Assembly (NCBI GenBank): GCA_012718915.1
Contig: JAAYBI010000012.1
Coordinates: 1-64,000, forward strand
Length of the DNA stretch: 64,000 bases
Direction: 5' to 3'
Source: Clostridiaceae bacterium
Lineage (GTDB): Bacteria; Bacillota; Clostridia; Saccharofermentanales; Saccharofermentanaceae
Positions 35,580-39,496 of this stretch are shown here, piece after piece. Positions within the stretch are counted from its first letter, which is position 1. Each line of letters opens with the position of its first letter. Below the pieces are notes generated by a model, which saw only the letters and a list, made by a program, of their open reading frames with translations, was not told the origin of the DNA and did no database searches. A program made the position numbers and the translations under genes.

Positions 35580-36257
35580 TCAGTACCCGACGATCTCCAG
35601 AATGCCCTCTGCCGTAGTCGCATCCATTGCCATGACTACAAAAATGGACTTAGTCTTTACATCTTTACAGAAATAGATAACTTGTCCTTGCATCTCGACC
35701 GTTTGGAATTCGATATCGCCACGTGTGACCGTGCCCATTTCAGTGTTAACGTCTCCTTCCGACATTCCCATTCCCATGCCTTCCGTAAACTCTGCAAACG
35801 CCGCGTCAAGCGTCGATACATCCTCTACCTGAAAGTACATTGCGATCTGATCGAAAGTCTTTGACATGCCGTAGAAACCTTCGACCAAAACAATGCCCGA
35901 ACCGACCAAATCCTCAGCAGGAATACTTTCGATCAAAAAACCCGCATCTGCCAAAGGCTGATAAAGAGCCATGCCCGATTCGGAAAGACTAATTTCACCC
36001 GTGCCAAAATCGCCCAACAATCCTTCAGAACTCTCATCTGAAACGGACTCAGAAGTATCAACAGATTCTTCTGTTGCTTCTGTCGTTGACTCGGTAGTTG
36101 CCTCGGTGGTTGCCTCGGTGGTTGCTTGAGTGGTCTCTTCGGTCGTCTCTTCGATGGTCGTTTCTGACTTCTTGTCGGATTTCTTGTCATCGTTATCGCA
36201 TCCGACGATTGCAAACATCATGAGAGCACTCATAATCAGTGCTATTAATTTTTTCAT
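35580..36257 (-). CDS. Surface lipoprotein with Thr/Glu-rich linker (lipoprotein array member 1)
   Basis: This 225-residue lipoprotein has a signal peptide ending in the lipobox AIVGC, an Asp/Lys stretch, then about 45 residues of Thr/Glu-rich low complexity (TTEETTQATTEATTEATTE) that probably spans the cell wall. The globular domain (about 75-225) contains ADAGFLIESIPAEDLVGSG and ends ATTAEGILEIVGY. The C-terminal GY ending is shared with its neighbours. No known domain is recognised. It belongs to a five-gene leftward array of small lipoproteins and has its own terminator. Confidence 0.83.
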   Translation of the reverse strand: MKKLIALIMSALMMFAIVGCDNDDKKSDKKSETTIEETTEETTQATTEATTEATTESTTEATEESVDTSESVSDESSEGLLGDFGTGEISLSESGMALYQPLADAGFLIESIPAEDLVGSGIVLVEGFYGMSKTFDQIAMYFQVEDVSTLDAAFAEFTEGMGMGMSEGDVNTEMGTVTRGDIEFQTVEMQGQVIYFCKDVKTKSIFVVMAMDATTAEGILEIVGY

Positions 36258-36441
36258 TTACTTACCTCTTTCAAATATATTGTATGGTTCGTGTAACACA
36301 ACAGGACTATTTATAACACATACAAATTCGTAAGTAAACGCAATCAGGCAAAAATTGTCAAAAATACCAAATATTGTGAGATTAATTGACCATTCTTAGT
36401 CATATTTAATCCGTGAGTTTCAGCGAATCAATGCTTGATAC

Positions 36442-36960
36442 TTAATAATAGTATCCTAAATCCTTAAGTATTCCGTCAATCTTTTCTATGGCCGTCAAGT
36501 CGTTGGCGTTTGCCGCCATATCGATCAAAACATCGTCAAACAAAACTGTCGCCGCGTATACACCTTTATCCTGACCGTACTCATCGGTATAACTTACTGA
36601 TATGACCATCCGTTGCATACTGTCTTGATCCGTAGAAATGAGCGTCATATCCTGATCGGAGGCAATATCATCCATCAACAACTTATACCCATCACGGATA
36701 GAATCATACTTTGCCTGCGCCGCGTCAGCGGTCACATAGCGTACATACTGAAGTGTATATGTATCCGTCGTACCCCTCGAGAATTCAGCAATTTCATACT
36801 CTTCTGAACCGACCATATTGACGACCTGGTCAATGCCGTTTTTATCAGAAATATCAACAAACTCGTCCAAAGAAAAACTCTTGCGCTGACAAGCAGTTAT
36901 CGAAAAACTCAAACTCAATAAAAGTATAACCGTGATGACTCTGGTCCATGTCGTTTTCAT
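36442..36960 (-). CDS. Small lipoprotein (array member 2)
   Basis: This 172-residue lipoprotein has signal MKTTWTRVITVILLLSLSFS and lipobox ITAC. The promoter, leader and signal-peptide DNA are nearly identical to member 3, but the mature part (FSLDEFVDISDKNGIDQVVN, ending KIDGILKDLGYYY) has diverged widely. Shared pattern with the others: an N-terminal DxFxxI helix, a VxYxxxxDAxxxYDxI segment and the C-terminal LGY. Function unknown. Confidence 0.83.
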   Translation of the reverse strand: MKTTWTRVITVILLLSLSFSITACQRKSFSLDEFVDISDKNGIDQVVNMVGSEEYEIAEFSRGTTDTYTLQYVRYVTADAAQAKYDSIRDGYKLLMDDIASDQDMTLISTDQDSMQRMVISVSYTDEYGQDKGVYAATVLFDDVLIDMAANANDLTAIEKIDGILKDLGYYY

Positions 36961-37141
36961 AGAAAGCCTCCATGTTTATTATTATTGACTCGGAAATAAT
37001 TACAAGAGTCAAAGTGGTTGACGCAACGGCATCAAACAGATGAATTATATCACAATCACAGCGACGATGAAATGCACAATCACCGCTTTCCAATTACAGA
37101 AATTCCCATGCCGATGGAACTCCGGAGCAAAGAAAAACGAG
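36936..37141 (-). repeat. Duplicated promoter-leader-signal cassette, copy 1
   Basis: This segment is closely similar to 38047-38247. It covers the first codons of array member 2, its leader (conserved CCTCCATG and TTGACTCGG), and an extended -10 promoter TG-A-TATAAT on the minus strand (37052-37044). It ends at AAAAACGAG, where the insertion at 37142 begins. Confidence 0.8.
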
Positions 37142-37483
37142 GTTGCCTCAAAAGAGTTGTAACAAAGTTGAATGAGGAACGTTCCAGATAGATTAGAGTA
37201 AGTATGAACGCAAGAAGACGTGGAAATACCGGCAAAAGTGTCGCGTGGACGAGGTTTTGCCGGTAGTTTCGGCATTAAACAGTCCTTGAGAGGAAGAATT
37301 TACCGGCAAGAAAACTTAATTTCGGTGGATTTGCCGTTATTTTTCCATTTCCGGACCTTGGCTGAAGCGAGGCAATCTCTCTTCTGAGCCTTCCGCCGGC
37401 GCAGCAATGCAATCTGAATTCGAGTCTTGACGTGCACCTCAATGATTAAAAGCTGACACTAAAACGTGGCCATTGTATTGAGA
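37142..37483. mobile_element. 342-bp insertion with short terminal inverted repeats (MITE-like or IS remnant)
   Basis: Comparing the two duplicated intergenic regions shows this block is extra in the gap between array members 3 and 2. It splits the sequence that forms the terminator stem in the other copy (AAAAACGAG on the left, CGGGCTCGCATGAG on the right). Ends are imperfect inverted repeats: GCCTCAAAA within the left end and GTCTCAATA read inward from the right. The first 36 bases match 52761-52796 at 31 positions. The ends resemble the GTCTCAAAA termini seen in some IS families. No transposase frame. Confidence 0.6.
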
Positions 37484-37525
37484 CGGGCTCGCATGAGTCA
37501 TAATACAACGTGAATACGGATACTA

Positions 37526-38071
37526 TTAATATCCAAGTTCCTCTACGACCTTATCGACTTCCTTGATATAAGATTTGCCGGTGTCTTGAGCAAAGACCAT
37601 GAGAATCATTTCATCCGAACGGATGATGACGACATACATCTCACCATAGAAATTATCCACATAATCTTCAAATTCACCGTTAACGACGATCTTCTTATAA
37701 TTTCCCTTGCCACTCTTCTTGATGGAGCCCTCGAAGTCCTCGTCTCTCTTTGCTTCATCAAGTTCTTTGATCATATCATTGATTTCATCTTTGGCATCGC
37801 TCTTCTCATCATAATACTCAACCATGACAACATATTTATAATCTTCACTGTATGCGTAATACGCTTCATCAACATTTTCGCCCGCGTAATTTTTATACAT
37901 ACCATAACCCAAATCGTCCATGATATCTACGAAGTCATCAAAATCAATCGGCTCGACAACCTGGTCATTATCGTCTTCATCAGAAGAATGCTCGCGTTGG
38001 CACGCACTTGCAGAAAAAATCAGACTCATCAAAAGAATTCCGGAAATGACTCTGGTCCATGTCGTTTTCAT
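37526..38071 (-). CDS. Small acidic lipoprotein (array member 3)
   Basis: This 181-residue lipoprotein has signal MKTTWTRVISGILLMSLIFS, lipobox ASAC, and a short acidic linker (HSSDEDDND). The domain starts DFDDFVDIMDDLGYGMYKN and continues with VMVEYYDEKSDAKDEINDMI, NYKKIVVNGEFEDYVDNFYGEMYVVIIRSDEMILMVFA and the end KVVEELGY. It is strikingly similar to member 4 in the mature part, while its signal peptide matches member 2. The protein is rich in Asp, Glu, Tyr and Lys. No known domain. The terminator seen after member 4 is interrupted here by the insertion. Confidence 0.84.
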   Translation of the reverse strand: MKTTWTRVISGILLMSLIFSASACQREHSSDEDDNDQVVEPIDFDDFVDIMDDLGYGMYKNYAGENVDEAYYAYSEDYKYVVMVEYYDEKSDAKDEINDMIKELDEAKRDEDFEGSIKKSGKGNYKKIVVNGEFEDYVDNFYGEMYVVIIRSDEMILMVFAQDTGKSYIKEVDKVVEELGY

Positions 38072-38247
38072 AGAAAGCCTCCATGTTTATTATTATTGAC
38101 TCGGAAATAATTACAAGACTCAAGGCGGTTGACACAGCGGCATCAAACAAGTGAATTATATCACTACGATGATGAAATAAAAAATCACCGCTTTCCAATT
38201 CCGAAATTCTCATGCCGATGAAACTCCGGAGCAAAGAAAAACGAGCC
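38047..38247 (-). repeat. Duplicated promoter-leader-signal cassette, copy 2
   Basis: This is the second copy of the 36936-37141 cassette, serving array member 3. The extended -10 TG-A-TATAAT lies at 38163-38155 on the minus strand. It runs into the intact terminator at 38242-38265. Confidence 0.8.
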
Positions 38248-38265
38248 CGGCATGTGCCGGGCTCG
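38242..38265 (-). terminator. Terminator after lipoprotein array member 4
   Basis: CGAGCCCGGC (38242-38251) and GCCGGGCTCG (38256-38265) form a perfect GC-rich 10-bp stem with a four-base loop; on the minus strand TTTTTCTTT follows. Confidence 0.88.
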
Positions 38266-38299
38266 CATGAGTCATAATACATCGTGAATACGGAAAAGA

Positions 38300-38806
38300 T
38301 TAATAACCAAGTTCCTTAACGACTTTATCGACTTCCTTAATATCAGACTTGCCGGTGTCTTGAGCAGCGACCATGAGAATCATTTCATCCGAACGGATGA
38401 TGACGGCATACATTTCACCATAGAAATCATCCACATCATCTTCAAACTCGCCGTTAACGACGATCTTCTTATAACTGCCCATACCACTCTTCTTGATTTT
38501 GCCGTCGAAGTCCTTTTCTTTCTTAGCCTCTTCGATATCTTCGATCATATCGTCGATTTCATCTTTGGCATCATCCTTGTCCTCATAATACTGAAGCATG
38601 ACGACATACTCATAGTCGTCATCATAGGCATACCATGCTTCATCAATCTTCTTGCCGGGATCGGACTCTTCATAGACATTGTAATCCAGATCATCCATGA
38701 TATCCTCGAAGTCATCCGAATCAATCGGCTTCTTTCCGCAAGCTGCCAACGAAAAACCCATCACCAAAACCAGAACTAATGCGAATAATTTCTTTGCTTT
38801 CTGCAT
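38300..38806 (-). CDS. Small acidic lipoprotein (array member 4)
   Basis: This 168-residue lipoprotein has signal MQKAKKLFALVLVLVMGFS and lipobox LAAC. The mature domain parallels member 3 almost residue for residue (DSDDFEDIMDDLDYNVYEE, YVVMLQYYEDKDDAKDEIDDMI, YKKIVVNGEFEDDVDDFYGEMY, KVVKELGY). The first residues after the lipid Cys (GKKPI) match member 5 instead. An extended -10 TG-A-TATAAT lies at 38863-38855. Function unknown. Confidence 0.85.
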   Translation of the reverse strand: MQKAKKLFALVLVLVMGFSLAACGKKPIDSDDFEDIMDDLDYNVYEESDPGKKIDEAWYAYDDDYEYVVMLQYYEDKDDAKDEIDDMIEDIEEAKKEKDFDGKIKKSGMGSYKKIVVNGEFEDDVDDFYGEMYAVIIRSDEMILMVAAQDTGKSDIKEVDKVVKELGY

Positions 38807-38940
38807 ATTACACCTCTTCCTTACTTAAAACGTGACAAACACATATTTTATTCAATTATATCATAATTTCTTGAATCTGAAACAATTTGCTTGCGTTTTT
38901 ATGTCATTTTCAGGTAACGCATCCGTATGATAATAAAACG

Positions 38941-38972
38941 CATCACGACAACCTCAAGAAAACAGAGTGATG
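38941..38972 (-). terminator. Possible terminator after lipoprotein array member 5
   Basis: CATCAC (38941-38946) and GTGATG (38967-38972) form a 6-bp stem with a 20-base loop; on the minus strand CGTTTTATTATC follows. The stem is short, so this is weak. Confidence 0.4.
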
Positions 38973-38983
38973 ACACACCCGGA

Positions 38984-39496
38984 TCAGTATCCTAATTTTT
39001 CTACCAAGTCATCAACTAATTTGGTTCCACCCTCACCCTCAGAAAATGCATGAACCAAAATAAGCATGTTATCGACCTGAATGATGACGACCTTATCATA
39101 TCCGTATCCGGCATCCTCGGAGCCCATACTCGCAGTCAGTTTGTTGACCCCGGATGACTCGGACGTCTCCACCTTGAAATTTGCAGCGACACCGTCAGCC
39201 GAAGCATTAATCTCCGCCTCCATATCCTTCATATCTTTTAAGGCGTCATCAAATTTCTCCTTCGCAGCGTCCTTGGATTCATAGAATTCCAGATAGCTTA
39301 ACCGGGTTAAATCAGAAGCCAGATAATAGGATTCGACGCCCTCCTGCATGTCCTCGCCGACTTCAACCGTCAATCCGGCATCAGTCATCACCTTCTGATA
39401 TTTTTCGGCGGTGATCGGCTTCTTTCCGCAAGCGGAAAGAGATAACATCAAGGATACAACGAAAATTACAGCGATGGCGTTAAGTTTGATTCTCAT
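38984..39496 (-). CDS. Small lipoprotein (array member 5)
   Basis: This 170-residue lipoprotein has signal MRIKLNAIAVIFVVSLMLS, lipobox LSAC and mature start GKKPITAEKYQKVMTDAG. It keeps the family pattern: a YYLASDLTRLSYLEFYESKDAAKEKFDDAL segment, a hydrophobic VVIIQVDNMLILVHAF strand pair and the end DDLVEKLGY. It is the most upstream member of the leftward array. The ATG at 39496, behind AGAAGG, is preferred to a TTG two codons earlier. Confidence 0.82.
   Translation of the reverse strand: MRIKLNAIAVIFVVSLMLSLSACGKKPITAEKYQKVMTDAGLTVEVGEDMQEGVESYYLASDLTRLSYLEFYESKDAAKEKFDDALKDMKDMEAEINASADGVAANFKVETSESSGVNKLTASMGSEDAGYGYDKVVIIQVDNMLILVHAFSEGEGGTKLVDDLVEKLGY

Follow-up and report, generated by a model that had tools for sequence, protein, structure and literature searches.

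A chimeric gene in an array of related lipoprotein genes from a Clostridiaceae bacterium, most probably formed by a single tandem duplication

Introduction

The Mog1p/PsbP-like superfamily of SCOP has the topology alpha-beta3-alpha-beta4-alpha. Members of the superfamily are thought to act by contacts with other proteins, in many cases next to membrane complexes (PMC7716261, PMC4524185), and DcrB (DUF1795) is a membrane-anchored lipoprotein (PMC7716261). The mycobacterial lipoprotein LpqN has been reported to interact with MmpL3/MmpL11 and was proposed to assist MmpL transporters (PMC7458404). Arrays of phase- or antigen-variable surface lipoproteins provide a different point of comparison: the locus described here resembles them in its tandem paralogs and in one chimera with a shared leader, but differs in that no repeated cassette exchange was found. 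No relevant work on mosaic lipoproteins in Clostridia came up in a literature search.

The locus lies in a stretch of 64,000 nucleotides of contig JAAYBI010000012.1 (hereafter the window). An earlier note, made from the sequence alone, had described five consecutive leftward genes for small lipoproteins, and their ORFs, signal peptides and lipobox cysteines were all seen in our analysis. The best reading of the array is that of an ordinary, slowly evolving paralog cluster containing one chimera. We put the probability that a single tandem duplication made the mosaic, with all of its mosaic features explained, at about 0.85.

Results

Four of the five array genes belong to one family

The array comprises five consecutive minus-strand ORFs (225, 172, 181, 168 and about 170 aa for the earlier note's members 1 to 5, here E, D, C, B and A). 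The letters A to E follow the order of transcription, from right to left. A signal peptide and lipobox cysteine could be read from the sequence at the N-terminus of all five.

38984-39496, minus strand: gene A (member 5), family lipoprotein, 170 aa, lipobox LSAC-GKKPI
38300-38806, minus strand: gene B (member 4), family lipoprotein, 168 aa
37526-38071, minus strand: gene C (member 3), lipoprotein of 181 aa, chimeric by alignment, absent in the sister species
36442-36960, minus strand: gene D (member 2), family lipoprotein, 172 aa
35580-36257, minus strand: gene E (member 1), acidic lipoprotein, 225 aa, with a Thr/Glu-rich linker

Judged by protein sequence, A-D are paralogs within one homologous lipoprotein family. 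Their homology is far beyond chance, with blastp E-values from 7e-8 for the A-D pair, through 1e-20 for A and B, to 3e-71 for B and C. The family profile recovers each of the four at about 6e-28 or better (3.2e-29 for A, 6.1e-28 for D); because A-D are part of that profile, independent evidence of homology comes from the blastp values. The idea that all five genes form one family is supported for A-D and not for E, which shares with them only signal-peptide similarity and the final GY. A and B have an identical 20-nt block encoding their CGKKPI start, in agreement with the shared GKKPI start noted earlier; as evidence of a swapped cassette this fails, because similar starts (CSKKPI, CAKKPI, CGKKAI, CGKKVT) are widespread in the family.

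No match between the mature part of E and A-D was found by blastp, and profile comparison with the family gave a weak match (P 0.014, probability 3%), although in the expected register. Searches with full-length E returned many matches, nearly all to the signal peptide and the Thr/Glu-rich linker, whereas the mature part alone found no homologue in 115 genomes of the window's bacterial family; the contig of the sister species G001 stops inside the E linker. A single-sequence AlphaFold model of E is of low confidence (pLDDT 53), and a fold search with it gave no significant match, but its order of elements, H-EE-H-EEEE-H, is nearly that of the family. With the order of elements and the register of the profile match on one side, and the poor model, the lack of any significant profile or fold match and the lack of homologues in the 115 genomes on the other, the chances that E is a strongly diverged member of the same fold family as A-D are about even.

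The mature domain is probably Mog1p/PsbP-like

The mature domain of B was modelled by AlphaFold with high confidence (pLDDT 95.6, pTM 0.90) as H-EEE-H-EEEE-H, with elements H8-17, E21-24, E32-39, E45-52, H55-74, E78-85, E90-103, E106-117, E120-126 and H131-143. This predicted structure shows the alpha-beta3-alpha-beta4-alpha topology of the Mog1p/PsbP-like superfamily. The top Foldseek matches in the PDB are mostly to members of that superfamily (TM1622 (1vr8), PsbP, EagT6/PA0094 and DcrB), with a probability of 0.9-1.0 for most of the top ten, a best E-value of 1.8e-3 and TM-scores of 0.45-0.48, below 0.5. No Mog1p/PsbP-like Pfam or NCBIfam family was among the matches of 45 family members, no PDB sequence match was found for them, and a viral fold library gave no significant match. 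On the strength of the model, the mature domain of A-D is probably a single Mog1p/PsbP-like domain.

The closest likeness is to DcrB and TM1622, which share the predicted order of elements and lead the Foldseek matches; DcrB is, like the family described here, a membrane-anchored lipoprotein. The DcrB group differs in that its Pfam and NCBIfam models find no sequence match here, the TM-score is below 0.5, and DcrB is a Gram-negative protein. LpqN-type mycobacterial lipoproteins resemble the family as lipoproteins with a weak fold match (6e5d), but the match has a probability of 0.23 and a TM-score of 0.27, there is no sequence similarity, and the phylum is a different one.

The family is near-universal in one bacterial family and lacks a domain model

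The family was found in 110 of the 115 genomes of the window's bacterial family, at 1-10 copies per genome, and in 3 of 399 genomes drawn from the phylum. Neither the single proteins nor the 45-member alignment gave a credible Pfam, NCBIfam or PDB sequence match. The suspicion that the domain is undescribed was thus borne out, in that the A-D family has no Pfam or NCBIfam model. Two checks had been proposed with it, a profile built from the five mature domains and structure predictions for a common fold. A profile of the family recovered A-D, and its comparison with E gave a probability of 3%; structure prediction gave a confident model for B and a low-confidence one for E.

Most homologues have a signal peptide and lipobox, read from sequence. 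In Ser/Thr kinases that carry a transmembrane segment (L061-L063; Pkinase E 2.9e-29) the domain also forms the C-terminal, extracytoplasmic end, as it does in larger lipoproteins (L064-L066). Each of the three kinases has a single copy of it; another domain, roughly 170 residues long and unmatched in Pfam, comes before this copy. The window's own genome encodes a membrane protein with weak similarity to PMT_2 (L097:7-1947) that ends in the family domain, which there follows repeated SMSAEE/SMTVEA-type motifs. A family that is near-universal in one bacterial family, is fused to Ser/Thr kinases and lacks a model would merit a curated entry and a ligand search, which could aid the annotation of many hypothetical surface proteins.

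Role of the lipoproteins and their ABC transporter neighbours

Across the 45 members there is no invariant polar residue, and only F11, A58 and G145 reach 90% conservation, which argues against an enzyme. We somewhat favour a non-enzymatic extracytoplasmic binding or adaptor module, a role that we infer. The N-terminal lipid of the family lipoproteins would tether them to the outer side of the cytoplasmic membrane, and each paralog would have a partner or ligand of its own. Fusion to kinases points to some members of the family as sensors of extracytoplasmic signals. A more specific proposal, that this is an unnamed lineage-specific extracytoplasmic binding domain that occurs in free lipoproteins and also serves Ser/Thr kinases as their sensor end, with paralog clusters supplying competing or complementary binders of one surface signal, is speculative and rather unlikely.

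It is similarly doubtful that the array and the adjacent ABC exporter pair form a functional unit, in which the lipoproteins would be the extracytoplasmic partners of the exporter, as has been proposed for LpqN and the MmpL transporters. The ABC-ABC-lipoprotein order is conserved in genera g1 and g5, and LpqN, with its reported MmpL interactions, is among the weak fold matches; but each gene of the window array has an upstream region of its own, one or more strong terminators are present, and in genera g2 and g4 the family sits away from the exporter, for example downstream of a tyrosyl-tRNA synthetase gene, which makes the ABC-transporter neighbourhood weak evidence of function. The g2/g4 loci L068, L071, L076 and L077 are lipoprotein pairs downstream of that synthetase gene. 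At L068 and L071 a 273-aa gene, with no Pfam match where tested, lies between the two.

Gene C joins the front of D to the body of B

The features that bear on the origin of gene C are the following.

38241-38266, minus strand: intrinsic terminator of B, strong, with an 11-bp stem and a T tail
38072-38252, minus strand: C upstream region (promoter, leader), about 85% identical to that of D
37953/37954, minus strand: inferred duplication joint in C, from the repeat-unit alignment; its counterparts lie near 36820 in D and near 38730 in B
37143-37483, strand not given: insertion of about 340 bp in the C-D spacer, a dispersed element that splits the duplicated terminator
36961-37141, minus strand: D upstream region (promoter, leader), which barely aligns to that of the D orthologue in the sister species

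The earlier note had reported that C and D are nearly identical in promoter, leader and signal-peptide DNA, and that C and B have similar mature domains. Both likenesses are real: a 271-bp alignment of C and D, which takes in the upstream region and the signal peptide, has 84% DNA identity, and one of C and B, 473 bp long and spanning the mature domain together with the 3' UTR, has 82%. In the protein, residues 1 to about 39 of C match D and residues about 40-181 match B. On these alignments C is a real chimera, with its front from D and its body and 3' UTR from B. Misassembly was considered as a source of C and rejected, as the B and C sequences disagree at 17-18% of sites.

When the B-to-C stretch is aligned with the C-to-D stretch, the two appear as copies of one unit that differ by one large insertion. 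The unit runs from the mature domain through the 3' UTR, terminator, promoter and leader to the signal peptide, its two ends falling near codon 26 of B and near codon 47 of D; at the joint C has a 24-nt deletion relative to D. We propose that a tandem duplication of about 0.8 kb ran from about codon 26 of B, through the B terminator and the D promoter, to about codon 47 of D. This would have placed a second copy of the D promoter, leader and signal peptide before a second B mature domain, giving gene C. The dispersed repeat would then have been inserted between C and D, and C would have lost 24 nt near the joint. One duplication with these end points yields a D front on a B body with no further assumption. 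Recombination had been expected at the signal-peptide/mature junction, and the joint does lie close by, though a few codons past the lipobox and not at the exact boundary.

The duplication most likely followed the split from the sister species

The sister species G001 (record DUPM01000123.1) has no C: behind two ABC transporter genes come A, B and D, and then the beginning of E. Its gene in slot 1 is the orthologue of A (73% identity), B is the best conserved member, with 88-89% identity between the two species, and D has an orthologue there and is related to slot 3 of genus g5. The B-D spacer in G001 is 240 bp long and contains a terminator resembling that of the B-C spacer in the window (38266-38241). 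All cross-genome comparisons used one genome per species.

The dS between B and C is 0.58, against 0.81 between B and its sister orthologue and 1.2-2.3 between window and sister for A, D and the ABC gene. Upstream of the genes, C and D align at about 85%; the same region of D barely aligns between the species. The C/D upstream likeness, the low B-C dS and the absence of C from G001 together indicate that C is most likely younger than the species split, and that the sister species keeps the ancestral state of the array. Genus g5 (G005, G009) has the same locus, where two ABC genes are followed by three lipoproteins of the family, then pfkB and a radical SAM gene, and the slot 3 lipoproteins of g1 and g5 group together in the tree with 96/86 support. 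The kept synteny and the slot 3 grouping point to slow birth and death of genes at a stable place.

The sequences also favour duplication when the alternative is spelled out: C would be old and lost in the sister species, and the window copies would have been kept alike by gene conversion. Distances among three sequences alone cannot root the comparison, and the tree leaves the branching of B, C and sister B undecided. Against this history stand the upstream likeness of C and D, where D's own upstream hardly aligns between species, a B-C dS below that of B and its orthologue, the presence of three genes rather than four in the g5 arrays, and the need for independent conversion in both halves of the gene. 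We regard it as improbable.

The array offers a clean example, with relative dating, of how a chimeric gene can borrow its neighbour's promoter and signal peptide, most probably here through one tandem duplication. In 27 other arrays every pair of genes was compared for similarity of upstream region and signal peptide against similarity of mature part and 3' region, and a promoter and signal peptide shared over unlike mature domains, comparable to the swap in C, was found in 0 of 27. The pair L118/L119 has signal peptides more alike than the mature parts; it was rejected as a second swap, as the signal peptides of orthologues are just as alike and there is no common upstream DNA. That the array is a set of interchangeable signal-peptide and mature cassettes, actively recombining to give variable surface proteins, is very improbable: it does contain one genuine chimera, and copy numbers in the family differ between genomes, but one event covers every mosaic feature, the other arrays have no like swap, the L118/L119 bias reflects conservation, and the locus is syntenic across two genera. 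Of the repeated duplication plus recombination read earlier from the mosaic, the making of one chimeric gene survives; "repeated" finds no support, since one event suffices and G001 has the pre-duplication array. The suggested likeness to variable surface proteins is not supported either, and the array is most probably no new variation system. No recombination site or recombinase was seen in the array or in the neighbouring genes covered by a scan that was not exhaustive, and Rfam found no RNA element in the array.

The element between C and D is repeated elsewhere in the genome

A second copy of the C-D spacer element, 78% identical, is present elsewhere in the genome (G000:C72). The insert includes a palindromic unit of about 45 bp with inverted ends (accggcaaaa...ttttgccggt), which may be a dispersed palindromic repeat. 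Elsewhere in the genome this unit is repeated in tandem about every 74 bp (G000:C93:4831-5320, C7:42-232 and C87:4687-5098); the copies in these arrays vary, unlike those of a usual CRISPR array.
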